Positions 6,431 to 25,491 of a stretch of DNA of 26,695 nucleotides are shown here, in pieces. Positions within the stretch are counted from its first letter, which is position 1. Every line of letters starts with the position of its first letter. The translations under genes and the position numbers were made by a program. The stretch is from a virus. The stretch lies in IMG/VR virus record IMGVR_UViG_3300021376_000294, positions 1 to 26,695 of that record; one strand, 5' to 3'. A model generated the notes under the pieces. That model ran no database searches and had not been told where the DNA came from. It saw nothing but the letters and a program-made list of their open reading frames with translations.

Positions 6431-6844
6431 TTATATGCAGTGGAGGGAATCAAGGAAGGAATGATCTGACATTCTGCGGAGAACTTTGTCTTGTGTAGTG
6501 CTTGAAAGGCTATTGTAGTCGTCTCCATTTTGGTAAAACCGATCGCTAGCCGAGGATCGTCTACGAACCTCCCTGCGTCGGATAGGTGGCCTTGTGGACA
6601 TTTGAGAATGAATCTTTGGCGTGCGATCATTTTGGATTGGAGCAAATGTGATCTTTAGTCCGAGGAGGTCCCCGAGGCTCAGCCTCAGGTTAATGTCAGT
6701 CTTATTAAGAAGCAAGGGCTCAATGTGTTCTTTAATAATCTCGACACATGCTTCAGCATCTTGCAAATAATCATGCCAAGTGTTCTCCATGCCATCATTT
6801 AAGAAAGCAATGCGTTTAGCTATTCGATCACGTAAATCAGTCAT
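6431..6844 (-). CDS. Hypothetical protein (137 aa)
   Basis: 137 residues from ATG 6844. The N-terminal 45 residues are clearly helical (DLRDRIAKRIAFLNDGMENT, then WHDYLQDAEACVEIIKEHIE) and look like the small phage proteins with 'r.riA..ia...G......W..y..dA..il..i'. The C-terminal half is arginine/serine-rich (RPPIRRREVRRRSSASDRFY) and probably disordered or nucleic-acid binding. It overlaps the upstream gene by 8 bp and is followed 3 bp later by the membrane protein gene. Function unknown. Confidence 0.65.
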   Translation of the reverse strand: MTDLRDRIAKRIAFLNDGMENTWHDYLQDAEACVEIIKEHIEPLLLNKTDINLRLSLGDLLGLKITFAPIQNDRTPKIHSQMSTRPPIRRREVRRRSSASDRFYQNGDDYNSLSSTTQDKVLRRMSDHSFLDSLHCI

Positions 6845-7046
6845 GACTTTTGTAGATTTTCTCTAAATCATTTCTTTTAAGATTTAATATCATTGAAAGA
6901 ATCTCTGATTGCGTCAATTCAATAGAAATTTCTGCCATGTGATAGAAATCAGGTGGACACACGGCAGAAGCGCCTGTAAGACCATTTGATTCCCTCCAGT
7001 AAAGCCACATGTATCTGGCAATAGATTCCCTCAAGTTAGGATTCAT
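6837..7046 (-). CDS. Hypothetical protein (69 aa)
   Basis: 69 residues from ATG 7046. It contains LRESIARYMWLYWRESNGLT and a C-terminal helix pair (IELTQSEILSMILNLKRNDL), soluble and helical. It is translationally coupled at both ends: 11 bp overlap with the upstream cysteine-motif gene and 8 bp with the downstream gene. No recognised family. Confidence 0.6.
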   Translation of the reverse strand: MNPNLRESIARYMWLYWRESNGLTGASAVCPPDFYHMAEISIELTQSEILSMILNLKRNDLEKIYKSHD

Positions 7047-7230
7047 GATCCGAGGTTGGAACCGCTATATGGTAATGGCAATGTCCATCTTTGCAACCAG
7101 ACGCAAAGAATTGTTGCGATGGGCTGGAGACCACATTGATGTAACGCATGCATTTGTTTTTCATGGGACAGGTAAAATCCAGGCAGCCGACCATCCGATC
7201 AGAAGAATTCAATTTTCCCATTTGCTTCAT
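7036..7230 (-). CDS. Cysteine-motif small protein, copy 2 (64 aa)
   Basis: 64 residues from ATG 7230 (a second Met at 7221 is possible). Cysteines at 16, 21 and 27 form GCLDFTCPMKNKCMRYI, with the same spacing C-x4-C-P-M-K-x2-C-M-R as the gene at 1531-1698, then a second pair CKDGHCHYH. Five cysteines and two histidines suggest a small zinc- or iron-binding protein (inference). The 5' end overlaps the upstream gene by 32 bp. Function unknown. Confidence 0.65.
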   Translation of the reverse strand: MKQMGKLNSSDRMVGCLDFTCPMKNKCMRYINVVSSPSQQFFASGCKDGHCHYHIAVPTSDHES

Positions 7231-8561: not shown

Positions 8562-8921
8562 TTAAATCAATGAGTAGCAAATCCTCATGACACCATTGGA
8601 TGGAGATCCAAGGGCAGCAAAAGCACCATAGCTCAGATCAAGATTTCGTCCAGGGACATATGGTCCCCTGTCGTTAACTTGAACTGTGATTTTTTTACCA
8701 TTGTTTGGATTAAATACTTGTAACCTAGTGCCGAATGGCAGGTATCTATGAGCAGTTGTAAATCCGTAGGCATTAAAGATTTGCCCGCTCGCTGTACGCT
8801 TCCCATGGTAACCATCGCCAACACCATAATGGGATACATAAGTACAGGAACTGGCAAATGCTGCTTTTACAGTGCTCAATAGAAGACAGGGCACGGTAAA
8901 AAGAGTAATTAATTTTTTCAA
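8562..8921 (-). CDS. RlpA-like double-psi beta-barrel protein (secreted)
   Basis: 119 residues from TTG 8921 (MKKLITLFTVPCLLLSTVKA, a classical signal peptide with cleavage likely after AFA near residue 23). The mature domain has the RlpA/DPBB motifs: SHYGVGDGYHGKRTASGQIF, TTAHRYLPFGTRLQVFNPNN, VQVNDRGPYVPGRNLDLSYG. The conserved acidic residues of NDRGP and DLS are present. RlpA proteins bind or cleave peptidoglycan glycan strands (lytic transglycosylase in Pseudomonas). In a phage this could aid lysis or cell-wall remodelling at the envelope. Cysteines C26 and C115 flank the domain and could form a disulfide. There is no SPOR domain, so it is the catalytic barrel alone. A terminator follows. 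Confidence 0.85.
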   Translation of the reverse strand: MKKLITLFTVPCLLLSTVKAAFASSCTYVSHYGVGDGYHGKRTASGQIFNAYGFTTAHRYLPFGTRLQVFNPNNGKKITVQVNDRGPYVPGRNLDLSYGAFAALGSPSNGVMRICYSLI

Positions 8922-9000
8922 TGTTAAAAATAGAGCTCAACGGCATCGATCCCCAATGCCGGGGGCGAACCCTGGAGGGGCTCGAAGCGGAAATGATCGC
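8922..9000 (-). other. Intergenic leader with two hairpins before the RlpA-like gene
   Basis: On the minus strand this 79-bp gap carries a UUCG-capped hairpin (GGG-TTCG-CCC, about 8962-8973) and then CGGCAT/ATGCCG (8941-8946 and 8956-8961). Neither hairpin is directly followed by a T-run (TATTTTT comes 8 bases later). It could be a weak terminator or a leader structure. It resembles a tRNA T-arm but no tRNA can be folded. Confidence 0.3.
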
Positions 9001-9189
9001 TTATTTCGTTAGTCTACCACGATTTTCAAGGTCGAGGTAGTCAATTGCGCTTTTTATGTGAGACTCGGGAATCTCATAAGTCATGAATTTATGGTCGCAT
9101 CGTGGGCATCGACGATAGCGTTGAACGGAAATACCAATCGACAGGGAGTTCGTCAGATTGGTGATGTTCCCGCACTTAGGGCACTGCAT
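9001..9189 (-). CDS. NrdR-like zinc-ribbon protein (62 aa)
   Basis: 62 residues from ATG 9189. Two zinc-knuckle pairs, C3-x2-C6 (MQCPKCGN) and C28-x2-C31 (RRCPRCDH), frame a segment with SVQRYRRCPRCDHKFMTYEI. This copies the NrdR N-terminus (CP.CG...v.dSr....irRRReC..C..rFtTyE). NrdR is the bacterial repressor of ribonucleotide reductase genes; full NrdR is about 150 residues with a C-terminal ATP-cone that is missing here. The phage also encodes a class II ribonucleotide reductase (13877-16219), so a DNA-binding mimic or antagonist of host NrdR is an attractive inference. It lies directly downstream of the tRNA-Leu gene. Confidence 0.65.
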   Translation of the reverse strand: MQCPKCGNITNLTNSLSIGISVQRYRRCPRCDHKFMTYEIPESHIKSAIDYLDLENRGRLTK

Positions 9190-9208
9190 GGCGAAGAAGG
9201 AGAGTAGA

Positions 9209-9282
9209 TAGCTGACCTGAGATTCGAACTCAGACTGGAGCGATTTTAAGTCGCTTGCCTCTGCCGATTGGGCTAGTCAGCC
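9209..9282 (-). tRNA. tRNA-Leu (anticodon UAA), class I shape
   Basis: Folds into a full cloverleaf: 7-bp acceptor (G1-U72 wobble), T8 A9, 3-bp D-stem GCC/GGC with GG in the loop, anticodon stem AGCGA/TCGCT with loop CTTAAAA, a 5-base variable region, T-stem CTGAG/CTCAG with loop TTCGAAT, and A73. CCA is not encoded. The anticodon TAA reads UUA (Leu), but bacterial tRNA-Leu normally has a long variable arm, which is absent. One base separates it from tRNA-Ile. Confidence 0.8.
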
Positions 9283-9283
9283 T

Positions 9284-9358
9284 TGGTAGGACTGCCGGGA
9301 ATTGAACCCGGTTCTGCCGCTTATAAGGCGACGGCTTTAACCAATAAGCAACAGTCCC
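9284..9358 (-). tRNA. tRNA-Ile (anticodon UAU), CCA encoded
   Basis: Cloverleaf: acceptor GGGACTG/CAGTCCT (G1-U72 wobble), T8, D-stem GCTT/AAGC, anticodon stem GTCGC/GCGGC with loop CTTATAA, a 4-base variable region, T-stem CCGGG/CCCGG with loop TTCAATT, then A73 and encoded CCA (9284-9286). It reads AUA without the need for lysidine. It is preceded on the transcript by a structured non-coding stretch (9361-9458). Confidence 0.85.
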
Positions 9359-9360
9359 CC

Positions 9361-9458
9361 ACTTACTTATTTTAGCATGAAGTAAGTAGTACTAGGTTGC
9401 CCTCAGAGTCAGTGTATGCCGTCTTGCGGCAAGACCATGTGTAGAGGGTCAATAACCT
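9361..9458 (-). ncRNA. Candidate structured RNA between the 347-aa gene and the tRNAs
   Basis: The 124-bp gap contains nested complementarity on the transcript. An outer pair AGGTT/AACCT (9454-9458 with 9394-9398) encloses CCCTC/GAGGG (9444-9448 with 9400-9404), which encloses the hairpin GTCTT-GCCGC-AAGAC (9421-9435). A second perfect 8-bp hairpin, ACTTACTT/AAGTAAGT (9361-9368 and 9380-9387), ends 2 bases before tRNA-Ile. No ORF is visible. It may be a tRNA-processing spacer, a terminator-like element, or an RNA linked to the upstream protein. It is not a tRNA (no T-arm). Confidence 0.4.
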
Positions 9459-9482
9459 CTTAAAATACAGTATAGCATGTAA

Positions 9483-10526
9483 CTATTCCATTACGCACTC
9501 TACTGTTTGAAAAACCTTGATTAAATCAAAAATCATCTTAGTGTAAGAATTACGGTGCCGACGGAATTCGAGATTGCCTACAACTTCAGACTTAGACAAT
9601 TTGCCCATTTGGCGGCGGATGTATGTGCTTCTGTAATCCCGATATAGATTTGCGCGATGGATGCCAGCCTTACGGGTGCGGAACGGTGAGGAACTAATCA
9701 AGCGCTGATAATAGCGACGACCAGCGGGACGACCTAAATCATCCTTAAGCACCCTGCCGTCGAGGTCATGTGTCAGAGCCCACAACGTCACAAGACGTGC
9801 CATTTTGACAATTTTATTCAGCTTGCCGTTACGCTTATTAAAGGTAATTCCGAGCTCTTCCAACTGTTTTTGGCTCATTTTTTCAAGCAACACTGGAAGC
9901 GCGGACTTGATCTGCTTAATCCAGGGATGATTTTCATCCTTATAACCACGAGATTTCAGGCGCACTAGCTCTAAATTGAGTCGCTGCCTATGTTCGTTGA
10001 CCGCTTTAATAATTGCATCAGGAGTCGGAGACTTGCGCTCCATTAGATCCATAAGCGGAACCGTGTCAGGAAAAGCATTACAGTAGCTACGGATAGCCTT
10101 AATGTCATGAGTGCCGCAGTCCGGACTGAGCTTTTTAATGGGATTCTTTTTCTCTAAGGCACTCCACTTATCTGAGCAGCCATATGCCAACTGCCGCGCA
10201 GAAGGTGTGATCCGCTCAGGAAATGCCAGGAGACGAATCTTCACTTTTCGCGCGGCACCAATCTCGTAGCACATCTTCTTGAAACAACTCCATTGGGTGT
10301 CTGTAAAGCGTTGGGCTGGTGATTTATCCGCGCAAATGGTGTGAGCACGTTCCAAGACAATCTCAATTAAGTCGCAGTTGTCAAGCGGAATTGAGCGGAG
10401 CCATTTAGCCCTGATAAATTCTGCGTGTGATACGACATTAGAAGATTTATCGTTACCAATCAACAGGAACATACCATTTGCCTCTTGATCCGCATAAATG
10501 CGGAGCGGGTGCTGAAAGGCGTTCAT
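9483..10526 (-). CDS. Unknown basic protein in tRNA cluster, possible RNase H/RuvC-like nuclease
   Basis: 347 residues from ATG 10526. The N-terminal ~150 residues have an order of motifs compatible with an RNase H/RuvC fold: D13 in a first strand (LRIYADQE), a second strand (GMFLLIGND), E55/E59 in a later strand (DLIEIVLERAH) and H140/D141 in a helix (CGTHDIKAIRSYC). The C-terminal 200 residues are strongly basic and helical (RKAGIHRANLYRDYRSTYIR), suited to nucleic-acid binding. This fold call is inference, and I recognise no family. It stands alone between tRNA-Arg and tRNA-Ile, a common place for mobile or homing genes. It appears somewhat more GC-rich than the AT-rich genes on the far left. 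It could also be a replication or recombination factor. Confidence 0.6.
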   Translation of the reverse strand: MNAFQHPLRIYADQEANGMFLLIGNDKSSNVVSHAEFIRAKWLRSIPLDNCDLIEIVLERAHTICADKSPAQRFTDTQWSCFKKMCYEIGAARKVKIRLLAFPERITPSARQLAYGCSDKWSALEKKNPIKKLSPDCGTHDIKAIRSYCNAFPDTVPLMDLMERKSPTPDAIIKAVNEHRQRLNLELVRLKSRGYKDENHPWIKQIKSALPVLLEKMSQKQLEELGITFNKRNGKLNKIVKMARLVTLWALTHDLDGRVLKDDLGRPAGRRYYQRLISSSPFRTRKAGIHRANLYRDYRSTYIRRQMGKLSKSEVVGNLEFRRHRNSYTKMIFDLIKVFQTVECVME

Positions 10527-10603
10527 GTTTAAAAATTTGGCCTAAGTCAATATATCTTTTTTTGCGCTTATAAAAAAAATGAATATCTCGGGCAAGTTAC
10601 AAA

Positions 10604-10677
10604 CGATCCAGGCAGGATTCGAACCTGCGACCGACTGCTTAGAAGGCAGTTGCTCTATTCCGCTGAGCTACTGGACC
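10604..10677 (-). tRNA. tRNA-Arg (anticodon UCU)
   Basis: Canonical cloverleaf: acceptor GGTCCAG/CTGGATC, T8 A9, D-stem GCTC/GAGC, anticodon stem ACTGC/GCAGT with loop CTTCTAA, 5-base variable region, T-stem GCAGG/CCTGC with loop TTCGAAT, G73. No encoded CCA. It reads AGA. It lies 7 bp after a membrane-protein gene and upstream of the 347-residue gene. Confidence 0.9.
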
Positions 10678-10684
10678 AGACAAC

Positions 10685-10891
10685 TCAAACAAACCAGAAT
10701 CTTGCCAAAAACAAAATCAAGACAAGTTTCCAGGCGCTAACACCGACAATCGGCGAAAGCAACAGGCTAAGGGTAATCAGGGCAGCGATAGCAAATGCTG
10801 CTGCTATGCATCCGCCAACAACACCCAAATCCCCAGCATGCTCTCTCATTTCATCTGTACTTAGGTTAAAGCTGAAATCCTTTTTATCCAT
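10685..10891 (-). CDS. Small two-segment membrane protein (68 aa)
   Basis: 68 residues from ATG 10891. After a polar N-terminus (MDKKDFSFNLSTDEMREHAG) there are two hydrophobic segments: about residues 22-46 (VVGGCIAAAFAIAALITLSL) and 50-66 (GVSAWKLVLILFLARFW). The size and topology resemble holin-like or small phage membrane proteins, but it is not next to the RlpA-like lysis gene. Holin function is not established. The ORF ends 7 bp before tRNA-Arg. Confidence 0.6.
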   Translation of the reverse strand: MDKKDFSFNLSTDEMREHAGDLGVVGGCIAAAFAIAALITLSLLLSPIVGVSAWKLVLILFLARFWFV

Positions 10892-10958
10892 GGAAATTTA
10901 CCGAAATAACGAATCAATCTACTGCAATTTAACGCAAATACAACAAAGTTTACGGGAA

Positions 10959-11099
10959 TCATTTCTTTTTTTGGTGCTCAGCTTTAGCTCGTTGCTTTTT
11001 CTCCTCAATATGCCTAATGGTTGCCGCAACTGCCTCATCCCTTCCAGGTGGTTCCAGCTTCTTTTCCTTAAGAATCCTAGACCAAAATTCAGGGCTCAT
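10959..11099 (-). CDS. Small basic hypothetical protein (46 aa)
   Basis: The ATG at 11099 overlaps the TGA of the upstream gene (ATGA), which decides the start over a GTG at 11150. The product is 46 residues, starting MSPEFWSRILKEKKLEPPGR and ending in a lysine-rich tail (KKQRAKAEHQKKK). It is helical and very basic; nucleic-acid or membrane-surface binding is possible. No family recognised. Confidence 0.6.
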   Translation of the reverse strand: MSPEFWSRILKEKKLEPPGRDEAVAATIRHIEEKKQRAKAEHQKKK

Positions 11100-11449
11100 T
11101 GATCCGTTAGATCCGGATATTGTTTTCCTTGAGGGATCTTCGAATACCACCAGGCTTTCTCCGTATTGGAAAGTCGCTCATAGTACAAAATATGTACTTG
11201 AGTCCAGATATGACCATGCAGGTCAATACCGCTTACAGCATAACTAGGGCATCTTGATGCCGCCAGGTCTGGGACGAATCTTTTGCCGATCCTGTTCCAA
11301 CTGGGCTGCTTACCTTTCCATTGCATTGAACAGGAAGGCCAAGGCAGCTCTTCCCGATCATACAAAACGCAAACTGGTCCAATCGTTTTGTAGGCAAATG
11401 ATCCGCCGTGCGAACGGATGACGGTGCCTGATTTTAGTGGATGATTCAA
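11096..11449 (-). CDS. Hypothetical protein (117 aa)
   Basis: 117 residues. The frame opens at TTG 11449, which overlaps the upstream TGA (TTGA), a coupling overlap that supports this non-ATG start. It is rich in aromatic residues and beta-prone (GTVIRSHGGSFAYKTIGPVC, IDLHGHIWTQVHILYYERLS, EKAWWYSKIPQGKQYPDL). It has no signal peptide and no recognised catalytic motif. It is part of a four-gene run below the portal gene (11643-10685), so it may be a minor head or connector-related protein, but this is only positional. Confidence 0.6.
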   Translation of the reverse strand: MNHPLKSGTVIRSHGGSFAYKTIGPVCVLYDREELPWPSCSMQWKGKQPSWNRIGKRFVPDLAASRCPSYAVSGIDLHGHIWTQVHILYYERLSNTEKAWWYSKIPQGKQYPDLTDQ

Positions 11450-11643
11450 GAAGCGAAACCAGACAGCACAAGGATTTTGTCATTAACCAATGCAGTGCAA
11501 TCCACTAGCGAATCTTCGATTTCTTTGCAGAGCTCAACAAGTTCCGCAGTGGTATTAAAAGTCATTTCCACAATCTCCTGGCTAGCTAGCCAGCAAAATT
11601 GATTAGCAGCTCCTGGCTTGAACTGAAAACGGGCAATAATCAT
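11446..11643 (-). CDS. Hypothetical protein (65 aa)
   Basis: 65 residues from ATG 11643, which has a good Shine-Dalgarno (GGAG, 8 bases upstream). A TTG lies immediately before it but is not needed. The sequence is acidic (FNTTAELVELCKEIEDSLVD) with a beta-prone N-terminus (MIIARFQFKPGAANQFCWLA). It is the first gene after portal (gap 33 bp) and is coupled to the next gene by TTGA. No family recognised. Confidence 0.6.
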   Translation of the reverse strand: MIIARFQFKPGAANQFCWLASQEIVEMTFNTTAELVELCKEIEDSLVDCTALVNDKILVLSGFAS

Positions 11644-11676
11644 CAATTCCGCTCCGATAGTTCATTGTATTCAAAA

Positions 11677-13266
11677 TCACTGAGATCTCGCCGCTGAAGC
11701 TTGAACTTTTTCTGGAGTTTGAATATCTGCATTAGGCTGCCCATCTATTTGATTATTGGCAGACCTGTTATCACTACCCCGGCTTACGGCTTCATTCACT
11801 TCCGCGACTATGGACTGATCATTAGGAGGCTGTTCAATTTGATCCATGCGATCTTGCTCGGTCCTTTGCAGTTCATCCTCAACCTTTAGATCAGGATCGA
11901 GGACCCCTCCACGTTGCAGTTCATCTAGCACTGTCCTCTTGGAGACCAGCCCTTGTGAATAAAGATTAACAAGCTGAGCAACATCCGACGCATCCATTGG
12001 CTTGTTGATCAAACTATCATTCATCGCCAATCCTGATTCGTTGTTGATCTGGTTGATCTCGCCGTTATAGGCGGCCCAGAAGCGCATCACAAGATTGAAC
12101 GAAGATGTCTTGTTGCGTACCAATGAAGACACTTGAGACGCGACTTGAGCCGCCCTCAGCGATGCCTCCGTAGCAGTCTTAACTTCAGCCCCATAAAGGA
12201 AGTTCAGGCCGCTGCGATCCATCAGTCCTTCAACATGACGGATTTCCGCCTGATGGCGCTCAAGACTGCGACCAGAAGGCTCTGCAAATTCAAACTTACC
12301 GCCTTCGGTATCAAGATCAACTGCGGTATTTGGTCCAAGAATTAAAGGAAGAGGTTGCCCATCTGGTCCGATCTTGGCTCCAGTACGCACAGGCACTGGC
12401 ATTGCGCATTTATGGATCAATTCATGCAGATCCGAGCGCATTTGGAAGTGCTGAATTGATAATTCCGCTAAACCGTTTAACGGGATATCACCTGAGGCGA
12501 ATCTAGAGACCGTAGCCCCATACCATGCAATCGGAACAACAGGCAAAGAAGTAGCTACTTCGCGTTCCTTGATCTGTCTCCACTCCCTACCATTGCGTTC
12601 TAATCGATATGTCTCAACCGATCCAGGGCGGCAAACATGATAAATCGCTTCTAGTTCAACACCAAAGGAGCCGGGTTCGATTTTCTGCCTGATCTGACGA
12701 ATCGTAGCATGAGCAAGTTTTTCTCTGCCATTCTCGTAGGTGACAGACCAATTGATCACGTCTTTTCTTTCAATCATGAGCATATAGGGTCTGCGACCTA
12801 TCGATTGCTCATCAAAGAAGTTCTCCTCCGATTCGCCAGGCGTCATATCAACCATGATAAAAACGCCACCATCCCTCAGGGCTTTTTCGTCGCACTTGTT
12901 CCAAAAACTTTGAATACTTTCGCCCTGAAGGTCGATATTCTTTTCTGCATTATCCATCGAAGCAGGGGCACCGATAACTTGAAATCTGCTTAACAGACCA
13001 GCATATGCCCGAATGCTGTCTCTGTAAATGGGAGTGTAGGTAGATCTGGATAGGCGACCGTAATAAGCTCTGTTAGGTTCGCCGTCCTCCTGCATTAAAT
13101 ATTTTGACTTCAAATCCTTTGCTAAACCTTTGTCATCAACAAAAGTGCCGTCTAATAAATACCAGCAATCAGACGCAAGCTGTAATGAAGGGAGAATGCG
13201 GACGACCTCAGGTCGATGATATGACACCAATGAAGGGTCATTTATAGGATGCGGTACTCCCTGCAT
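11677..13266 (-). CDS. Phage portal protein (DUF4055-like)
   Basis: 529 residues from ATG 13266. The overall pattern (N-terminal YHRPEVVRILPSLQLASDCW, then YYGRLSRSTYTPIYRDSIRA, ALRDGGVFIMVDMTPGE, WYGATVSRFASGDIPLNGLA, ELSIQHFQMRSDLHELIHKC, and the ...TATEASLRAAQVASQVSSLV... helical stem) corresponds to DUF4055 portal proteins, which form the dodecameric ring at the capsid vertex through which DNA is packaged. The length is typical. The C-terminus is polar and probably disordered. It is separated from terminase by about 6 kb of replication and nucleotide genes, which is unusual. The major capsid gene is not in this window. Confidence 0.8.
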   Translation of the reverse strand: MQGVPHPINDPSLVSYHRPEVVRILPSLQLASDCWYLLDGTFVDDKGLAKDLKSKYLMQEDGEPNRAYYGRLSRSTYTPIYRDSIRAYAGLLSRFQVIGAPASMDNAEKNIDLQGESIQSFWNKCDEKALRDGGVFIMVDMTPGESEENFFDEQSIGRRPYMLMIERKDVINWSVTYENGREKLAHATIRQIRQKIEPGSFGVELEAIYHVCRPGSVETYRLERNGREWRQIKEREVATSLPVVPIAWYGATVSRFASGDIPLNGLAELSIQHFQMRSDLHELIHKCAMPVPVRTGAKIGPDGQPLPLILGPNTAVDLDTEGGKFEFAEPSGRSLERHQAEIRHVEGLMDRSGLNFLYGAEVKTATEASLRAAQVASQVSSLVRNKTSSFNLVMRFWAAYNGEINQINNESGLAMNDSLINKPMDASDVAQLVNLYSQGLVSKRTVLDELQRGGVLDPDLKVEDELQRTEQDRMDQIEQPPNDQSIVAEVNEAVSRGSDNRSANNQIDGQPNADIQTPEKVQASAARSQ

Positions 13267-13324
13267 TTTTAGAATAGCAATTTGCCTTCACAGCAAGAAT
13301 CTGTGCCGCTTCTCGCGACTCTTA

Positions 13325-13870
13325 TTAGTCTACCTTGATCCCCTTGCTGGGCTGAACAGTCATGTCATTCATATATCTACCTGTAATTGCATAGGAATTT
13401 GTAGGAGTTTGATCAAGTCGCGCAAACCTCAATTGGCCAATTCGCATGCCAGGCCAAAGCTCAATATCATGCCTTTGATTAACATTAAACAACTCGAGCG
13501 TAATTCGACCCTCAAATCCTGGATCGATATATCCAGCCATGAGATGTTCAAGTCCCATGCGACCGAGAGTGCTCTTGAGTTGATATTGAGCTTCTGCCCA
13601 GTCAGGCACTTTGATAATCTCATTAGTTACGCCCAGGATGAAATTACTAGGGCGCAACTTAAAGGGTTCGTCTTCAGAAAACCCTGTCAGGTCAAAAGGT
13701 AACCAACGAGTGCGAAGTGCCTCAGGGCCACAGATGTGCCCCTCAACAAGGATTTCCTTGCCAAGGGTTACATCGATTGACGCGGGGTTGACATACTTGA
13801 GATCAAAAGGAGAAATAAGTTTGTCCTCCATGCACATAAGTGCCAGTTGCCAATCAACAAGAGTACTCAT
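13325..13870 (-). CDS. dcd: dCTP deaminase (dUTPase superfamily)
   Basis: 181 residues from ATG 13870. It matches the Dcd/dUTPase trimer fold: early SPFDLKYVNPASIDVTLGKE, the middle block KSTLGRMGLEHLMAGYIDPG, then FEGRITLELFNVNQRHDIEL with the catalytic-type glutamate in TLE, LWPGMRIGQLRFARLD, and a C-terminal G-x-Y...PS tail (YAITGRYMNDMTVQPSKG). Dcd converts dCTP to dUTP and thereby feeds dTMP synthesis, here plausibly through the ThyX encoded at 21293. The start is 6 bp after the ribonucleotide reductase stop, so the two are co-transcribed. Strict dCTP deaminase versus bifunctional activity cannot be told from sequence alone. Confidence 0.85.
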   Translation of the reverse strand: MSTLVDWQLALMCMEDKLISPFDLKYVNPASIDVTLGKEILVEGHICGPEALRTRWLPFDLTGFSEDEPFKLRPSNFILGVTNEIIKVPDWAEAQYQLKSTLGRMGLEHLMAGYIDPGFEGRITLELFNVNQRHDIELWPGMRIGQLRFARLDQTPTNSYAITGRYMNDMTVQPSKGIKVD

Positions 13871-13876
13871 TGGAAA

Positions 13877-16219
13877 TTAAATTTGCTTACCAACTTGATC
13901 AGCGTCTTTCTCCGCCTCGGAAAGACATTTGTCAGAATCACATCCTGCAGCCCCCTTGAGCTCGTAGTCTGGGGTGTCATACTGCTGTAGAACCTCTAAG
14001 AAATCCACCTTATCTTTTCCAAAAATGATTGGGAGGGCACTTCTGTAAGAAGATGCGACGCCATGAAGTCTTTCGTAGGTCTGGGCATCGATTGGTTCAA
14101 ATGGAAGCCGGGGAAAAGTTTCATTGACATCAAAGCGAGCCAGAAGAGCAGCGCTGATATAACCAGCACTCTGCTCCATTGAGGAGTGAATGCAAGAAGT
14201 AAGAATAGGAATTTCATCTTCTCGAAACTCAATGGTCGCAGAGGTGTTATGCTCAGTGTAGTGAGTCTGAACCTGCATGTAAAGGCCCCACTGAGAAATT
14301 GCAGGCAATTTACTCAGGTCAAATTTGTCGCAACCGTTTACATTTGCCCAGGAGACTGCGGTCGGAATCTCAACTAGAACCTCATGGACGCGAGGATCCA
14401 TGATGTCATCCAGAAGATTTCCATCTTCATCCTTTGCGGACTGAGCGGGAACAACTGAATAGCCCCAATCCCGCAGCGCAGAGACTAGTGGATCGGTTTT
14501 GCCAAAGGTGATTCGGCGAATAAAGCGTTGTGCCTTAGGAGGATGCCAGCCAGGGGAGGCCCCCGTCATCAGGCTCTTAGTGCCAGCAGGCTGCACCGTT
14601 GTTACACGATTCGGAACACGAAGTCCATGACGCTCGCAATATTCCTTGATCGCTTCACGCACTACCGCACGCCAACGCACCAAGTATTCCCGCTCTGATT
14701 GAATGAAAGCCTTACCGATACGGCCACCTGGGCGGCCATTCATCATCCATTGCAGCCAAGTACTACCAAAGGCATGTACAAAGAAATCAAATAGGCCGGT
14801 AAAACTCACGCCAACAATTGGATCAATTAAGCGACTGTATTGATACCGTTCATGATAAAATTCATGGTGCAGCAATGCGGCTGCCTGCAATGCACCTGCT
14901 CGGAAAGCATCATCCTGACCTTTTTTGTTTTCAGGACTGATTGTATTTAGATGAATTTCAGCCAGATTGCAGTGGAAGTCGGAGCCAATAATTTCCCCGC
15001 AAGGATTAAGACCATATCGCATCATTCGATGCTCAAGTTCTCGCTCGTCAATGCTAATACCAAGTTCCTGAGCGCGATAATCAAGGTAACTTTTGGCGAT
15101 TTCCTTGTCATCCGCGTAAGTACTCAAGAAGACTTCGCGTGAATGGGATGTGTTGAGAAGATCACGATTTGCTCTTGCAATAGCTTCCGGAACAAATTGA
15201 ATGGCACCTTCACCGGAATAAAACTGCTGACGGATGGACTGCTCTACCTCTTCGATTGTGGGCACATTATGAAAGCAGCGAGTATGGTTAGCCATTCTCA
15301 GCGCTTCCTTTTCTGGATCGACTTTCCAGTTACCATCTTTATCTTGGGTATAAAGACCCATTTTGCAATTGGCTGCCTCAGTGTCGGCTTCGCCAAATTG
15401 GCGCATGCCTGCACTACGGCGAATATTACCTGCTACAACACAGGTGGCCGCTTCATCAATCAGCAAGCAACATTCAACCGAAGTCAGCTTCCTCCCTTGT
15501 GCTTTGTTAAGGAGGTTGATGATCTTGGTGAACATTTCTTCGACCTTGATTGGATTAGCTGTACCACCAAAGCCTTTGAGACGCTCACCAGCGGGTCGAA
15601 TATTACCAAGACCAATCTTTAGATCCAGAGTAGAACCGCCTTGTTGCCATTTGGCTTCCATTGCCAAACTCAACACCATCCGATAGGCATCTGCCCAACC
15701 CTGACGGCTATCGCCAACAGTAAGGACAAATAGATCGTTTTCTTGTTCTAACGAAGAATTCTCTTGGCGATTTTTCTTGGCAATCGTGCCAACTTTATTG
15801 ATCTTAATGATATTAATTTTGTTCTTAACTGCTGGTAGTTTTTCAATAAGATCAGTCTCAAGAATCGCGCCTGTTCCAGAACCCATCATGGCCAGTTCCA
15901 TGATAAGTTTGAATGCATCAAGGTCAACGATGTTAGTGCTAGTGCAATTATACCAGCCACTAAAATTCTTCTGTTCAGCAGCCCAGTCGGTTCCAGCAAC
16001 CCAAAACGCTCGGCCAGAAGGAAAGCAGTGTTGATTTAGTGCCTGATCAAGTACAAGATTTTTCTCCTCTTCCGTGTATTGACCAACGCGAGCGACATCA
16101 TCAATCGTTCGCGTCATGGCCTCCTTGAAGGTTTCCCTCGAACCATCTGGCTTTCGACGGCTATAGGTCCGATAGAAAACGGCAAGAGCGCTGGGAGCGG
16201 TAGACGAAAACTCAGACAT
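13877..16219 (-). CDS. nrdJ: Class II (adenosylcobalamin) ribonucleoside-triphosphate reductase
   Basis: 780 residues from ATG 16219 (a TTG precedes it). Key features of monomeric B12-dependent reductases are present: the first redox cysteine in YNCTSTN (C92), the active-site loop NPCGE (405-409, with catalytic Cys and Glu), the phosphate-binding PAGTKSLMTGASPGWH block, and a C-terminal redox pair C760-x4-C765 (CDSDKC). The enzyme reduces ribonucleoside triphosphates to deoxyribonucleotides, using adenosylcobalamin to make the thiyl radical, and needs no second subunit. This type is typical of cyanobacteria and their phages. It sits between three microprotein genes and dCTP deaminase, forming a nucleotide-supply unit. 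The A9 run before the gene may be a slippery site. Confidence 0.92.
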   Translation of the reverse strand: MSEFSSTAPSALAVFYRTYSRRKPDGSRETFKEAMTRTIDDVARVGQYTEEEKNLVLDQALNQHCFPSGRAFWVAGTDWAAEQKNFSGWYNCTSTNIVDLDAFKLIMELAMMGSGTGAILETDLIEKLPAVKNKINIIKINKVGTIAKKNRQENSSLEQENDLFVLTVGDSRQGWADAYRMVLSLAMEAKWQQGGSTLDLKIGLGNIRPAGERLKGFGGTANPIKVEEMFTKIINLLNKAQGRKLTSVECCLLIDEAATCVVAGNIRRSAGMRQFGEADTEAANCKMGLYTQDKDGNWKVDPEKEALRMANHTRCFHNVPTIEEVEQSIRQQFYSGEGAIQFVPEAIARANRDLLNTSHSREVFLSTYADDKEIAKSYLDYRAQELGISIDERELEHRMMRYGLNPCGEIIGSDFHCNLAEIHLNTISPENKKGQDDAFRAGALQAAALLHHEFYHERYQYSRLIDPIVGVSFTGLFDFFVHAFGSTWLQWMMNGRPGGRIGKAFIQSEREYLVRWRAVVREAIKEYCERHGLRVPNRVTTVQPAGTKSLMTGASPGWHPPKAQRFIRRITFGKTDPLVSALRDWGYSVVPAQSAKDEDGNLLDDIMDPRVHEVLVEIPTAVSWANVNGCDKFDLSKLPAISQWGLYMQVQTHYTEHNTSATIEFREDEIPILTSCIHSSMEQSAGYISAALLARFDVNETFPRLPFEPIDAQTYERLHGVASSYRSALPIIFGKDKVDFLEVLQQYDTPDYELKGAAGCDSDKCLSEAEKDADQVGKQI

Positions 16220-16267
16220 CAAGTGATTGCGGGTGATATCAGGCTACCGGATCCTGGCTTTTTTTTT

Positions 16268-16411
16268 CTAAAGATCAAAGTTTTTGCACTTGATATCTAA
16301 AGGGTTTTCGTCGCAAAACTTATCCCAAAATGGGAGGACATTTTCGGTTTTTTCTGGTAGCAAGTCTTCCCGCTGTTTAGGGTCTTGCTCACTGAGATTT
16401 TCTTTCATCAT
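16268..16411 (-). CDS. CP12-like C-terminal motif microprotein (47 aa)
   Basis: The ATG pair at 16411/16408 opens a 47-residue ORF ending at TAG 16268. The acidic N-terminus (MMKENLSEQDPKQREDLLPE) is followed by PFWDKFCDENPLDIKCKNFD. The pattern F-C-x-E-N-P-x4-C-[KR]-x-[YF]-D (C-x8-C) matches the C-terminal loop of CP12, the small cyanobacterial protein whose redox-controlled loop binds GAPDH. The CP12 core motif (AWD.VEEL) and N-terminal cysteine pair are absent. The same frame is open upstream back to a TAG at 16457-16459 without another start. It lies 48 bp upstream of the ribonucleotide reductase start. GAPDH binding is inference. Confidence 0.55.
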   Translation of the reverse strand: MMKENLSEQDPKQREDLLPEKTENVLPFWDKFCDENPLDIKCKNFDL

Positions 16412-16456
16412 TTTTGTTGCAAGACCTGGTATGTAAGAATAAAAACCAGAGGGATC

Positions 16457-16684
16457 CTAGAGGCATGATGCCCAGAGGATCGTCGCAGTAGTATTATTAT
16501 GGTTCATTGTTGCGAATAAAAGTTTTTCTCGCAAAAAGAGCCATCTTGATTGATCGGTGAAATAGATGTGGCGTAACAGAATTACACAATCCGCCCATCT
16601 CAATTTGCCAATAAGGCCAAGAAGTAACAGCAAGATTCTGTTGTCTAATTCGGCCCCTAAATCTAGAAGCCGATCAGGTTTCAC
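16457..16684 (-). CDS. Uncertain hypothetical ORF (75 aa)
   Basis: A GTG at 16684 overlaps the TGA of the upstream microprotein gene (GTGA), a typical coupling overlap, and the frame runs 75 codons to TAG at 16457. The product contains a leucine-rich stretch (DNRILLLLLGLIGKLRWADC, VILLRHIYF) that may be a membrane or buried segment, then polar sequence. No family recognised. The same frame continues open after the stop into the CP12-like ORF. The overlap supports it, but amino-acid composition is unusual, so it may not be coding. Confidence 0.4.
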   Translation of the reverse strand: MKPDRLLDLGAELDNRILLLLLGLIGKLRWADCVILLRHIYFTDQSRWLFLREKLLFATMNHNNTTATILWASCL

Positions 16685-16827
16685 CGGCCCTGTCCCCTGT
16701 AGGGTTTCCTGGATGGACTACGCTTAGTCCGACCTTGATTGAGGCGAGTACGAACACGCTTACCATCTCCAATGCGAGTACGCTTTGGCGGTCCCGGAGT
16801 GAATTCGACGTTTTTGTAGACAGCCAT
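16681..16827 (-). CDS. Small arginine-rich conserved phage protein (48 aa)
   Basis: The ATG at 16827 to TGA at 16681 gives 48 residues starting MAVYKNVEFTPGPPKRTRIG and ending RSPSRKPYRGQGR. The 'PGP.KRTRIG' and C-terminal 'k.YRGQG[KR]' patterns are familiar from very small basic proteins of cyanophages. Nucleic-acid binding is likely given about one third Arg/Lys. It lies 73 bp after primase and is coupled to the next ORF by GTGA. Function unknown. Confidence 0.7.
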   Translation of the reverse strand: MAVYKNVEFTPGPPKRTRIGDGKRVRTRLNQGRTKRSPSRKPYRGQGR

Positions 16828-16900
16828 GGCTTAATCGAGATGACTAAGCCAAGTTACCCGTTTTTTCAGAATAAAAGCGGATCAGTCGAAACAAGAGACC

Positions 16901-18493
16901 CTACAGGGAGTCTTCCATATTCTTTGGGGCAGAAAGCGTATCATCCTCGATTGGTGACACCATTATGTCTTCAATATGGTGTATGACCCCCGGCGACGAA
17001 TCAATATTTATAGTTGGCACAATGATCGGACGTAATTGTTGAAGATACTGCGGTTCTGCTACAAGAAGCATTGCCATCAATACATCTGGAATAGAATAAG
17101 TTTCATCTACACTCTCTACCTCCTTTATCCGATTCCACAGCCATTTCATTTCAGGGAAGTAAAGTAAATCCATTAATGGAGCCAAGACAGTCCTTATGTG
17201 TGGCTTATGAATATACAAACGAATTAATCTTTTTTCTACCAGTTTTCTTGTGTCAAGCAATCCAGGCTTGGTCCAGCTTTTTGTTAGACGATAATACTTT
17301 ACCGATTCATGTAAATCTTTGGCGATTTGAGTGGCAAGATTTTCTTTATTTTGTGCAAGCCTCAATGCAGCCTTGTCAATGTAATAAGTCCGCAATGATT
17401 GGCTGGATATCTTAGAGAATAAATTTTTGATTCGCTTTTCAACGTCATTAATGACCACGGAATCATTAAAATCAAGACTTGAAAGCCAGCTATCCAGTAT
17501 CCAATCGAGCCAACTTAGGGAGCCTGCAATCAAGGATCTCATGTCAACTCCTTCTTTAATGCAATCATCGGGATCCTTGCCATTTGGGAGGCTTGCAATA
17601 CGAACATCAAGCTTGCCAGACAATGCGTATTGCTCTATCGCGGCAAGAAATTTGCCAATTGCTCGCCTCCCGCCTTCGTCTCCGTCCATGCAAAGTACAA
17701 ATCTTGTGGTTCGTTTCATCAACCGCTTAATTACTGCTATATCCGGCGATGCCGTACCTTGCAGGGCTACCACGTTTTTGATTCCGTATTGATGCAACGC
17801 AATAACATCAATATGTCCTTCGACGAAGACGCACTCTCCTGCCTCGCGAATACTTTCTAGCGCACGGAATTCATTGAAAACAATATTCGATTTATTGAAG
17901 ATTATATTATTTTCTGTGTTAATGTATTTTGGCTTGTCATTGCCTATTGCTCTTTGGGTAAATCCAATAATTTTCCCACTTGAACTTTGAATGGGTATAG
18001 TTAAACGATTTCTACTTTTGTTAAAGCCAAGTCCGAATTCCCTGCTTGTCGCTGGTTCAATATTTCTTGATTTAATAAAGTCTTTTACCTTTTGATCGAG
18101 GCGCAAGTTTTCCCTGAAAAGTCTTTGTGTTGATTCGACTTGTTCATATGCGATTTCGATTTCCCTTCGACGCGCTTGTAGCTCCTCTGAGTTTTCGTCA
18201 ACATAAAGAACTTGTATATTAGATTTTTCTGCAATTCTCTCAACAGCTTCGCGGAAGCTAAGACCAAACTTTTCTTTGATATAATTGATTGCATCTCCCG
18301 AATTCCTGCAAACATGACAAAACAGAAATCCTTTCTGATCTGAAATCGTCAGAGATGGATTGGTGTCATCATGCCAGACACACTGACATATAAATTCTCG
18401 CCCCACGCGCTTCATGGGGACGCCCTCTGCTTCCAGTACATGGGAGATTGGCAGGGCTTTTATTTGATCAATAGTCTTAGATGAGATCCCCAA
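16901..18493 (-). CDS. DNA primase, DnaG type (CHC2 + TOPRIM)
   Basis: 530 residues starting with TTG at 18493, supported by an AAGG Shine-Dalgarno six bases upstream. N-terminal CHC2 zinc finger: C38-x2-H41 (CVWHDDTNPSL) and C59-x2-C62 (FCHVCRNSGDA). The TOPRIM domain has E225 in FVEGHIDVI, then VVALQGTAS, and D270/D272 in LCMDGDEGGRRAIG. The C-terminal ~200 residues are helical and resemble the DnaG helicase-interacting part; no fused helicase (Walker A) is present. It synthesises RNA primers at the phage fork, presumably with a helicase encoded elsewhere or by the host. It lies 24 bp after the small sigma gene and in the same transcript. Confidence 0.9.
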   Translation of the reverse strand: MGISSKTIDQIKALPISHVLEAEGVPMKRVGREFICQCVWHDDTNPSLTISDQKGFLFCHVCRNSGDAINYIKEKFGLSFREAVERIAEKSNIQVLYVDENSEELQARRREIEIAYEQVESTQRLFRENLRLDQKVKDFIKSRNIEPATSREFGLGFNKSRNRLTIPIQSSSGKIIGFTQRAIGNDKPKYINTENNIIFNKSNIVFNEFRALESIREAGECVFVEGHIDVIALHQYGIKNVVALQGTASPDIAVIKRLMKRTTRFVLCMDGDEGGRRAIGKFLAAIEQYALSGKLDVRIASLPNGKDPDDCIKEGVDMRSLIAGSLSWLDWILDSWLSSLDFNDSVVINDVEKRIKNLFSKISSQSLRTYYIDKAALRLAQNKENLATQIAKDLHESVKYYRLTKSWTKPGLLDTRKLVEKRLIRLYIHKPHIRTVLAPLMDLLYFPEMKWLWNRIKEVESVDETYSIPDVLMAMLLVAEPQYLQQLRPIIVPTINIDSSPGVIHHIEDIMVSPIEDDTLSAPKNMEDSL

Positions 18494-18517
18494 GGATTGC
18501 CTTCAATATATCGCGTG

Positions 18518-19132
18518 TCAATCCTGCCATAAAGAATTGATCAGCGCAACACCAGATCTGGAATTCGAACCCTTGAAATAATTTGAAAGCAATGAGACTT
18601 CGCTTGGAGTCATTTTGTTAATTTTTGTTTCTATTTCATTCAAGTACTGAGATGCAAAATCAACTTCATCGGGTTCAAGACTTGCTGATGGACTTGCCTG
18701 ATCATTGATTTCAAGTGGTGGTCCACTACAAACGCTAATAATCTCTTGCCATTCGCTTGATTCGAGATCCAGCTTCTCGCAAATAGCGGCTTCAGACATG
18801 CCTTCGTAAAGCATTTTACGACCACGCAACCAATTGTCTCGCATCTTATGGGTTAGTCTCACTGCATACGTCCGGTCCCTAATCCAATGAAGTAATTCGC
18901 CCCTAATCGTTGGAACGGCAAGACTACTGAACTTGAATCCAGATTCAGGATTGTAGCGATAAGCCGCCTTACAGAGCCCTTCTAAAGCAGCACCTTCAAG
19001 TGTGTCATAATCAATATCGGCAGTTCTTTGCAGCCGCCAAGCTTCTCTTCTAGCCAGATTAATGTTTTCAGACGCTAATCTCTGCTGTTCTTCATTTAAG
19101 TAAAATTTTCTGGTTTTGCGAGCCATTTTCAT
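18518..19132 (-). CDS. Phage sigma factor without visible region 4 (204 aa)
   Basis: 204 residues from ATG 19132. The middle part has sigma-70 region 2 features: DYDTLEGAALEGLCKAAYRY, NPESGFKFSSLAVPTIRGEL, HWIRDRTYAVRL (the -10 and core-binding segment), followed by a region-3-like helical stretch with DNWLRGRKMLYEGMSEAAIC. The -35-recognition HTH of region 4 is not seen; the C-terminus is a short acidic and polar tail. This composition recalls T4 gp55, a late sigma factor that lacks a normal region 4. It would direct host RNA polymerase to phage promoters; late transcription is inference. It follows the large terminase gene by 21 bp and precedes primase. Confidence 0.8.
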   Translation of the reverse strand: MKMARKTRKFYLNEEQQRLASENINLARREAWRLQRTADIDYDTLEGAALEGLCKAAYRYNPESGFKFSSLAVPTIRGELLHWIRDRTYAVRLTHKMRDNWLRGRKMLYEGMSEAAICEKLDLESSEWQEIISVCSGPPLEINDQASPSASLEPDEVDFASQYLNEIETKINKMTPSEVSLLSNYFKGSNSRSGVALINSLWQD

Positions 19133-19153
19133 TAATATAATATATTCATTCTA

Positions 19154-20677
19154 TCACCATAATTCTATTGTTTTTACATTTGGCAAATGTCTTGAACTTC
19201 TTCCCCATTGAACTTCCGTGACTTGTGGCGCTGTACGTTGCAAACAATAGTTTACTGCCATTGTTAGCGCATCAACTTGGTCATCATTCTTTGAAGCAGG
19301 AAATAAGCTGAACTCAGACACAAAAGCATCAAGCCATCTATCGCTTGCCGGTAAGAATACGTTCCCCGCTTCTACTAATGGAACAATTGCAGATGCGCGA
19401 GCCTGCTTACTTTTTTCTGGCTTGAAACCAATCAATCCGGGAACTTTTTTCTTTGCCATTTGAAAAACGGCATAACCACTGGCGGCAAGTTCAATAATCG
19501 TTCCATCAAGGACATGTTTTTTGTACATCCTTGATATCATTGCCAAAGTACCAATCACATCAGTTTTTTCTCTAAAAAGATCAAGCACATAAAAGCTATT
19601 AACAGATTGACCAACGACAATCCCAACAACATAGTCGCTCGTGTTTGCATCGGTAAAGGTACAGTCGACTGACAGAATAATTCTGTCAAAATCGGGTATC
19701 ACAGTATCATGTTCATAATACTGCCACCAATCAGGGTTAAACATGTTACCCCCGACTGGAGCTGGTCTTTGTTGGTATAAAGCCGCAAATTCCCTTACTC
19801 CAATCGCTTCCCTGATCCTTTCATAATCTTGCGTATCGTAACGCTGTGGGCAAACGGCTTGGTCTGCCTGTTCTCTCCAGTCAGGGATGGATTCACAATG
19901 ACTAGGAAGGATAGGTCGACTACCTTTGTCTTCATATAAAGCGGGAAAATCTGCAATTGTCCAGTTTTCTCTTCCGCTTTCGGACACGTTCATTTCGTTT
20001 TCAAACAATTGTCCGATCATGTCATTTTCGGACCATCTAGTTTGAATAACAACGATTGCTCCAACTTCTGGCTCAAGACGTGTATACAAGGTTGATGCAT
20101 ACCAGTCCCAAAGCTTATCCATCATCCGTGGACTCTCTGCATCCTCTCTATTTTTGACAGGGTCATCAATAATCAGCAGGTGACCTGAACGACCAGTAAT
20201 TGCGCCTCCAACGCCTGCTGCCCATAAGCCGCCGCCACCTTGTGTACCCCAAGCGTTAACAGCCTGCTGAACAGGATCTAGTAATCCACCGCCATCTTTA
20301 AAGTATTCTCGTGCTTTACGAGAGAATCCCTGACTCAATTCAGCAGAGTAAGAAGAAATACCAACAAAACGATCTGGATGAGCTAATAGATAGGCAGCAG
20401 GAAGTAATTGTGAACTAAGGAGACTTTTGCCGGTTCTGGGTGGGACTTGCAATATTAATCTATTGCAATCGCCGTCAATAACTTTTTGTAGCTGTTGAAT
20501 TAGGGTTGCGTGGAACTTGTAAAATTTATAGTTCGGATGTACTTTTTTAATGAACTTATGAAGTACAATCCTCTCGCCAACTTCTTTTTGTTGCGTCTTC
20601 TTATCACGCAACGCCTTAAGCATGCCCTGATTTCGGGCTGATCTTTTTAAGTAATCTCTACCTAGTTTTTGTGCCAT
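19154..20677 (-). CDS. terL: Terminase large subunit
   Basis: 507 residues from ATG 20677. ATPase: Walker A QVPPRTGKS (about 78-86), Walker B LLIIDD (167-172) in LLIIDDPVKNREDA, and coupling motif VVIQTRW. C-terminal RNase H-like nuclease: D338 in ILSVDCTFTD, E396 in IIELAASGYAVF, and the terminal acidic NDDQVDALTMA around 464-474. The length is normal. TerL is the packaging motor that cuts concatemers and pumps DNA through the portal. It starts 2 bp after the small subunit stop, so they form one unit. Packaging type (cos or pac) cannot be judged by eye. Confidence 0.93.
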   Translation of the reverse strand: MAQKLGRDYLKRSARNQGMLKALRDKKTQQKEVGERIVLHKFIKKVHPNYKFYKFHATLIQQLQKVIDGDCNRLILQVPPRTGKSLLSSQLLPAAYLLAHPDRFVGISSYSAELSQGFSRKAREYFKDGGGLLDPVQQAVNAWGTQGGGGLWAAGVGGAITGRSGHLLIIDDPVKNREDAESPRMMDKLWDWYASTLYTRLEPEVGAIVVIQTRWSENDMIGQLFENEMNVSESGRENWTIADFPALYEDKGSRPILPSHCESIPDWREQADQAVCPQRYDTQDYERIREAIGVREFAALYQQRPAPVGGNMFNPDWWQYYEHDTVIPDFDRIILSVDCTFTDANTSDYVVGIVVGQSVNSFYVLDLFREKTDVIGTLAMISRMYKKHVLDGTIIELAASGYAVFQMAKKKVPGLIGFKPEKSKQARASAIVPLVEAGNVFLPASDRWLDAFVSEFSLFPASKNDDQVDALTMAVNYCLQRTAPQVTEVQWGRSSRHLPNVKTIELW

Positions 20678-20679
20678 AA

Positions 20680-21261
20680 TTATTCATCGAGACAGATGAC
20701 ATCATCATCATTAATATCTACAACTTCAACACGCTCTAGTTCTTGTTCAACTAATTGAAGCATGTCTTCAACGCCCAAGGCAGCAGCCCAGGCTTGTCTT
20801 GATTGCTCTGTAATATTTGCTGTGGCTCTTAGTAAACCGGCAACCAAAGGAAGTGGCACATCCTCACCTGATTGATGTGCCTGTTTAACACGTTTAGTCA
20901 AGACCTCAAGCAAATCCTCGGAAACATCCATCATCAAACGTGCTTGGCGTTCCGATGCATCACGGAACTCCATGATGGATTGCTTGTGTCTTTGCTCTCG
21001 GAGCTTTTCAGTATCTTTCCAGATCATTGCAACCTGCTCTTTATCCCATTGAGCAGTTCGTTTTTCCCATTGATATTTCTTTGACCAGTGCTGAATGGTG
21101 TCAAGAGTTTTTTTATACATTTCAGCAATAACAGAAAGAGACCTTTTGGGTCCCATTCTCATATACTCCTGAAATGCTCTAAACTGTTCGGCATTCTCAT
21201 GCTTACCATATCTAGGGGGTAATGTATATCCCTTCCTAAAATCGTAGCAATGAACCGCCAT
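20680..21261 (-). CDS. terS: Terminase small subunit-like protein
   Basis: 193 residues from ATG 21261. An N-terminal helix-turn-helix region (SLSVIAEMYKKTLDTIQHWS, followed by KKYQWEKRTAQWDKE) is typical of terminase small subunits that recognise the packaging site. A long central coiled coil follows (SERQARLMMDVSEDLLEVLT, KRVKQAHQSG), then an acidic C-terminus (VVDINDDDVICLDE) that may contact TerL. Position directly upstream of TerL supports the call. It begins 32 bp after ThyX. Confidence 0.8.
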   Translation of the reverse strand: MAVHCYDFRKGYTLPPRYGKHENAEQFRAFQEYMRMGPKRSLSVIAEMYKKTLDTIQHWSKKYQWEKRTAQWDKEQVAMIWKDTEKLREQRHKQSIMEFRDASERQARLMMDVSEDLLEVLTKRVKQAHQSGEDVPLPLVAGLLRATANITEQSRQAWAAALGVEDMLQLVEQELERVEVVDINDDDVICLDE

Positions 21262-21292
21262 TCCAACCTATATAAGCGCTGTAGGATACCGT

Positions 21293-22802: not shown

Positions 22803-22810
22803 TTATTGTC

Positions 22811-22837
22811 AGTATAAGGGCTATAGTTCAGTGTCAA
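22811..22837 (-). promoter_or_regulatory. Possible promoter with a very short leader
   Basis: Minus strand: TTGACA (22832-22837), 15-base spacer, TATACT (22811-22816), inside the end of the RusA gene. Transcription would start near 22804, about two bases before the ATG at 22802, giving a nearly leaderless mRNA. The short spacer weakens the call. Confidence 0.4.
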
Positions 22838-25435: not shown

Positions 25436-25466
25436 ACTGTTTTCATTCAACGAAACAATGATATGC

Positions 25467-25491
25467 AAAGAAAAGGGGGCGTCAACCCCCC
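25467..25491 (-). terminator. Rho-independent terminator
   Basis: Minus strand stem GGGGG-TTGACG-CCCCC (25475-25490) followed by TTTTCTTTG. It ends the unit formed by the 133-residue gene, the annealing protein and the tiny ORF. The loop spells TTGACG, which is part of the hairpin and not a promoter. Confidence 0.8.

Follow-up and report, generated by a model that had tools for sequence, protein, structure and literature searches.

The present analysis identifies two small proteins of a cyanobacterial virus, P0003 and P0004, as divergent members, on the evidence of their sequences, of one widespread and uncharacterised family of four-cysteine phage mini-proteins, within which they represent two distinct subfamilies. 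The window, that is, the whole stretch of DNA analysed here, is an entire virus record of 26,695 bases; P0003 (64 amino acids) is encoded at 7036–7230 and P0004 (55 amino acids) at 1531–1698, both on the minus strand. Our preferred reading, to which we assign a probability of roughly one half, is that these proteins are metal-binding accessory factors of replication or nucleotide metabolism and that the phage carries two differently specialised copies of separate origin. The PHROGs entry for the family is without function, and the window proteins found no matching model in Pfam or NCBIfam, although the family is widespread; knowledge of its metal and its partner could put a name to genes that are now hypothetical in many phages. 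The window contributes two subfamilies that sit on the margin of the PHROGs model or outside it, both in one phage, so that the copies can be compared within a single genome.

The phage is a virus of cyanobacteria. The large terminase subunit shares 74.4% identity with its counterpart in Synechococcus phage S-CBS2 and 72.8–73.8% with those in S-CRES1–3, and the genes for ThyX, terminase, a sigma factor, primase, ribonucleotide reductase, dCTP deaminase, and portal follow the same order as in S-CBS2, S-CRES1, and S-CRES3, with the deaminase counterpart carrying a dUTPase annotation in the last two. Terminase, sigma factor, and portal were named through PHROGs, and ThyX, the reductase, the primase, and the deaminase by eye and by homology. 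Because related isolates have genomes of 71–74 kb, the record is probably a fragment. A second record (L096; IMGVR_UViG_3300020183_000131, 48,127 bases) is 99.84% identical to window positions 8678–23266 and probably derives from the same phage; when searched whole at E 0.1 it yielded no member of the four-cysteine family. The window phage also encodes two distinct sigma factors, at 24647–25468 and 18518–19132 on the minus strand (phrog_351 and phrog_36098).

The original prediction had placed a shared cysteine motif in two open reading frames, and both frames contain it, but on the minus strand. A six-frame search of the window finds the motif, C-x4-C-P-[LM]-K-x2-C-[LM]-R-[HY]-I, two times in its strict form, and none of 300 triplet-preserving shuffles contains it. 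A fourth cysteine, absent from the motif as originally described, lies further downstream (C51 in P0003 and C46 in P0004, the latter belonging to the subfamily MLNDITRCHGIDCHQKHQCARHTAPVPDNVLLSW..NPERAHLC), and the two proteins are 30% identical over 43 residues (BLASTP E 5e-8 in a single comparison). Across the family the pattern is C-x4-C-x5-C-x-R followed by the fourth cysteine 20–32 residues on, and both window proteins fit it. PHROGs v4 represents the core of the family as phrog_20586, which shares its cysteine and arginine pattern, length, and phage setting, and the core consensus is MPDI[ST]MC-x4-CP-x-KE-x-C-Y-R-[FY]-TA-x-PNEYRQSYF-x2-PP-x(5-12)-C-x-YYW. The C-x4-C-x5-C-x-R segment is kept in 78 of 80 core loci, the remaining two (L068 and L088) having a longer first gap. 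In a 10-row alignment that was not chosen by motif, and that includes the window proteins as two of its rows, the four cysteines and the arginine are invariant; phrog_20586 matches the eight other rows. The fourth cysteine is likewise invariant in all 51 rows of a larger alignment, whose rows were selected for the initial segment of the motif, so that the invariance there of the first three cysteines and the arginine follows partly from that choice.

The family is found in phages of diverse hosts. Both window proteins match gp077 of Synechococcus phage S-CBS4, at E values of 4–5 that have no significance alone, and gp077 is the sole cyanophage match common to both. Annotated as a hypothetical protein, gp077 is a core member in its C-terminal 46 residues (MPDIAMC-x4-CPVKENCWRY...CEYFW) and matches phrog_20586 at 9.8e-8; it differs in its annotated length of 104 residues, with an extra N-terminal half, and the exonuclease gene is gp075, two genes on. 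From gp077, tblastn led to phages of Cellulophaga, Nonlabens, Maribacter, and Celeribacter, and a single-sequence scan with a member from a spring-water phage gave 94 confirmed viral loci, 80 of which were taken into the comparison of core members. Isolate phages that carry the family grow on Synechococcus, Cellulophaga, Nonlabens, Maribacter, Celeribacter, and Riemerella. In contigs of cellular genomes, confirmation was obtained for 2 of 16 pattern hits, one on a Pseudomonadota metagenome-assembled contig that is phage-like by eye and the other a 10-residue match, and at E values up to 10 phrog_20586 gave matches in 6 of the 14 genomes used as controls. Our literature searches found no paper naming DUF6078 or phrog 20586, and a keyword search found no title or abstract opening on the family.

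Membership of the two window proteins was borne out by the profile search that had been proposed as a check, and the outcome of two unrelated families did not occur. Specifically, a 70-member profile holding neither protein ranks P0004 (37.4 bits, E 7.3e-11) and P0003 (27.3 bits, E 1.1e-7) at the top of 629 window frames, with the third hit at E 0.0086. Profile–profile comparison joins the P0004 type to the core with 96.8% probability (E 2e-10) and the P0003 type to the core with 97.8% (E 9e-13), whereas the two subfamilies match each other with only 58% (E 1e-4). The phrog_20586 model barely covers the window subfamilies, if at all: 5 of 15 of their members match it weakly (best E 0.0043), and the library model has no match at E 10 to P0003, to P0004, or elsewhere in the window record.

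A primase/helicase cluster lies within 4.5 kb in 23 of 96 core loci, and exonuclease, polymerase, Erf, thymidylate synthase, and nucleotide-kinase-like clusters occur in 9–12 of the 96 each, in counts that include redundant loci. Ten neighbour representatives were picked from 28 clusters as recognisable-looking; eight of these match DNA-metabolism or nucleotide-kinase PHROGs, one matches a terminase, and one has no match. Homologues of the window exoVIII, dcd, sigma2, or ThyX genes occur anywhere in the compared stretch at 9 of 12 P0004-type loci, and P0003 in the window lies among small open reading frames downstream of the portal gene, not adjoining the primase gene. Metal binding is plausible from the four conserved cysteines, with zinc likelier than an iron–sulphur cluster. 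In the model we propose, the four cysteines (C-x4-C-x5-C ... C) would coordinate a single metal ion, with structural zinc the likeliest candidate, and that ion would lock a chain of 50 residues, which has no CxxC knuckles, into a small fold. The protein may act as an accessory factor at the DNA-replication or nucleotide-metabolism stage, contacting nucleic acid or a replication protein through a conserved basic and aromatic surface formed by K/R-x2-C-x-R-[FYH] and, in the core, Q-S-[YF]-F. P0003 and P0004 would be differently specialised members and not interchangeable backups, P0003 being resident in the phage lineage and P0004 probably having come, together with the gene upstream of it, from other viruses. 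AlphaFold gave poor models of both proteins from 51-row alignments (pLDDT 47, pTM 0.2), and solved structures had no significant sequence match to the family profiles. In the PDB, hits to dipeptidyl-peptidases (E 0.11) extend over 16 profile positions and vanish with a larger profile.

It is possible, if on balance improbable, that the four cysteines instead hold a [4Fe-4S] cluster in the manner of WhiB-type proteins, which would make the family a small redox-sensitive or transcription-linked phage factor. The local C-P-x-[KR]-x2-C-x core and the C-x5-C spacing resemble the WhiB motif (PF02467), and the family has no CxxC knuckles; moreover, 1 of 15 subfamily members weakly matches the Pfam Whib model (E 0.068) and one matches the WhiB-like phrog_9926 (E 0.1). 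Both hits, however, are far below significance, and the 14 other members have none at E 10. WhiB proteins carry a C-x2-C-x5-C motif with the lone cysteine on its N-terminal side, whereas the present family has C-x4-C spacing and a C-terminal lone cysteine. A more elaborate form of the iron–sulphur idea, in which the family would be a phage mini [4Fe-4S] switch of 50 residues that reports the redox or oxygen state of the host to replication or transcription, with P0003 and P0004 serving different partners, strikes us as a long shot; if it were true, such a switch in a cyanobacterium would sense light and photosynthetic electron flow.

The preferred reading, in which a zinc-binding accessory factor is present as two specialised copies, also concerns the history of the pair. 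The two genes had been described as paralogues retained twice in one phage, and that description holds in so far as they belong to the same family and the same phage; a recent local duplication is not supported, each protein grouping with its own subfamily, relatives, and neighbours. By their sequences, P0003 and P0004 look like old, separately inherited relatives and not a fresh duplication, because they fall in separate clades, have neighbours of their own, and belong to subfamilies whose profiles each favour the core over each other. In a 61-row tree built on 52 columns, in which the bootstrap is unsettled, P0004 groups with its relatives in other phages (100/100) and P0003 with its syntenic kin (100/99.7). 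The neighbours differ as well: a 69-residue gene follows genes of the P0003 type, and a gene of an AELE type precedes those of the P0004 type. One of the two was perhaps gained by transfer.

A duplication inside the phage lineage followed by divergence is unlikely on these grounds, although several observations point towards it. The proteins share family and genome, and both keep C-P-[LM]-K; an earlier, smaller tree from which the P0004 relatives were absent placed P0004 beside the P0003 clade (96/57); and a second earlier tree did so with an SH-aLRT of 94.8, the paired tree there scoring above the free tree (AU p 0.605). In the 61-row tree, too, an AU test did not reject a P0003 and P0004 clade (p 0.383), and since the pairing stands unrejected in these tests an older duplication within the lineage is possible. 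Against this stand the two well-supported groupings in the larger tree, the closer match of each subfamily profile to the core, and the distribution of the types among portal relatives. Specifically, no P0004-type gene was found in the 50 of 53 portal-relative records that were searched whole at E 0.1, and none of the 50 shows both types; a P0004-type profile run against the 53 portal loci and three isolate stretches yielded only a single match, short and weak, in L146 (12.5 bits, E 0.12).

Copy number across phages bears on how unusual the pair is. In the same whole-record search of portal relatives, 10 records matched with one match each, comprising six of the P0003 type, three of a diverged type (that of L113), and one that is short and weak. 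A single copy is present in the 48-kb L207 record and in each of ten other P0004-type records that were searched, and S-CBS4 has one in its whole record. Among the core records, 40 of 80 were searched whole, and at E 0.01 two of these (G023 and G010) have two copies and 38 have one; the copies in G023 and G010 are encoded on opposite strands at distances of 14 and 18 kb, and these two records fall in the same three-member tree clade. Three further loci that share the same pair (L038–L040) have two adjacent copies, L069 has a second, partly open copy 0.7 kb on, and L084 ends in a fusion with the beginning of a second copy. From the core-record counts, L038–L040, and L069, two copies per phage appear uncommon but not unique.

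The relatives of P0004 were first reached through its upstream 76-residue neighbour and then by a direct scan, which gave 12 loci, one of them the L207 contig. These relatives read MLNDITRCHGIDCHQKHQCARHTAPVPDNVLLSWVATLNPERAHLC and are 44–58% identical to P0004. Their profile, which consists of 10 rows of which one (L231) is wrongly trimmed, scores P0004 at 72.7 bits (E 1e-21) and P0003 at 5.8 bits, a value that 466 of 2000 shuffles also attain. P0004 itself reads CPLK, near the CPMK of P0003, and the relatives with which it groups read CHQ[KR] or CRQK. Directly upstream, at 1711–1941 on the minus strand, lies the 76-residue open reading frame, of a 'SPAAQAVL...AELE' type; in the window it ends ..CIECIAAELEAQ and is followed after 12 bases by P0004. 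In 8 of the 12 other loci, judged on the upstream frames displayed, the P0004-type gene begins on or next to the stop codon of a preceding ..A[IV]A[AD]ELE.. gene, L208 and L221 being alike; in L230, L223, and L224 the frame displayed is a different one, and the L229 locus is cut. Compared with the intact 'LSPAAQAVL..YDVPPEGLPAFAEEM' relatives in L207 and L236, the N-terminal half of the 76-residue frame appears to be out of frame (1711–1990).

The window also holds a third copy, of the P0004 type but truncated, at 1972–2046 on the minus strand. It reads PMLRDIIRCHGTGCHYE.., matches positions 1–17 of the subfamily profile, and then diverges to a stop; its score is 24.5 bits (E 1.1e-6 over 1233 frames), and the best of 60 shuffled windows reached 12.5 bits. 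Given this broken copy and the out-of-frame 76-residue frame, the stretch from 1.5 to 2.1 kb looks like a site of gene traffic and decay.

P0003, in turn, belongs to a subfamily whose genes in kin phages lie downstream of portal. Among 53 portal relatives, orthologues lie 3.7–5.2 kb downstream of portal in L104–L107, L109, and L116, the corresponding distance in the window being 4.4 kb. In L106 and L116 the series runs NrdR-like gene, RlpA gene, 174-residue gene, P0003-type gene, and 69-residue gene, and L104 has the same series without a match to the 174-residue gene. In the window the 69-residue frame (6837–7046, minus strand) overlaps the 3′ end of the P0003 gene, and its homologues follow the P0003-type gene in L104, L106, and L116 at 40–41% identity. 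The start codon of P0003 is uncertain: the protein as annotated begins 15 residues before the first cysteine, and the orthologues in L104, L105, L109, and L116 begin 6–7 residues before it. A profile of four orthologues gives P0003 42.3 bits (E 3.9e-12) and also picks up P0004, with 20.8 bits (E 2e-5); with this profile none of 2000 motif-preserving shuffles reached the score of P0003, and 5 of 2000 reached that of P0004. A 62-residue CxxC..CxxC protein encoded at 9001–9189 on the minus strand is NrdR-like by eye, in a phage that encodes ribonucleotide reductase; it matches phrog_10675 (1.2e-6, no assigned function) and several other entries weakly, and homologues of its gene precede that of RlpA in L104, L106, and L116.

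Diverged forms of P0003 occur in L108, L110, and L113, and with these included a P0003-type gene is present in 9 of the 36 portal relatives that have at least 5.5 kb after portal and absent from the other 27. The compared stretches of S-CRES1, S-CRES3, and S-CBS2 had no P0003-type gene, nor did the S-CBS2-sized record behind L120. Such dispensability in kin, together with very small size and variability, is a feature of many host-takeover genes, and the cysteines might accordingly form disulphides, or the proteins be host-directed inhibitors, with no metal role at all. We consider this quite unlikely, since no signal peptide is evident by eye and the retention of four cysteines and an arginine across divergent phages suggests a cytoplasmic protein with a metal site.

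Shuffled sequences delimit how much of the family assignment each comparison can carry. Plain shuffles of the two proteins reached at most 11.5 bits against the core profile. Shuffles that kept the first three cysteines, P, K, and R (1000 of each protein) reached at most 27.0 bits, against 27.4 bits for P0003 itself, and 26.3 bits, against 37.5 bits for P0004. When all four cysteines were kept with P, K, and R, 2 of 2000 reached P0003 (best 34.5 bits) and 0 of 2000 reached P0004. On these figures the link of P0003 to the core is weak taken alone and rests on the bridge through its orthologues; with the subfamily profiles and the same motif-preserving shuffles, 0 of 2000 reached P0003 (42.4 bits) and 0 of 2000 reached P0004 (72.4 bits). 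Chance agreement of cysteine spacing between unrelated reading frames, which the shortness of the sequences, their 30% identity, and the two shuffles that match P0003 against the core profile might suggest, is exceedingly improbable, being contradicted by the absence of the motif from 300 shuffled windows, the 70-member profile, the profile–profile scores, the tree with its separate clades, and the subfamily profile hits with their shuffles.

Several database comparisons help to place the family. Neither PHROGs nor NCBIfam contained a model matching P0003 or P0004 at E 10, and a direct scan of viral contigs with the two proteins found no close relatives. Pfam hits on P0003 and P0004 to WD40 (0.014), TILa (0.096), and DUF6078 (0.15) all fall below the cut-off. 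The N-terminal stretch of DUF6078 (PF19555) weakly resembles the family, with best E values of 0.0016 in the 10-row alignment and 0.003 among 15 subfamily members, but its cut-off of 27 bits is not reached by P0004 (12.8), the Riemerella phage protein (18.7), or the L009 member (19.2), and P0003 has no match to it; the Pfam model, moreover, is 145 positions long, unlike the mini-proteins. Three tblastn hits are attributable to chance: that in Mycobacterium phage Adler lies in a frame that is antisense to an annotated gene and contains a stop, that in MT836247 overlaps a long open reading frame (dehydratase-like by eye) in another frame, and that in a Klebsiella phage overlaps the end of an antisense DUF1367 gene.

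An intergenic element lies at 1329–1405 of the window (77 bp, extending at most to 1318–1473). It is 96% identical to an unannotated segment of Synechococcus phage S-H1 (MK105819, 30685–30761) and is also present in four viral contigs (L235–L238) at 87–100% identity. In all five loci compared, the window and these four contigs, a phrog_7802 homologue lies 0.4–1.6 kb from the element. The element has a stable predicted fold on either strand (z about −3.5), and an Rfam search with it gave no match; it is possibly a structured RNA or a mobile or regulatory element. Adjoining it, 81 bp at 1410–1490 are 80% identical to the kin records behind L212 and L213 (locus 15434–15514).
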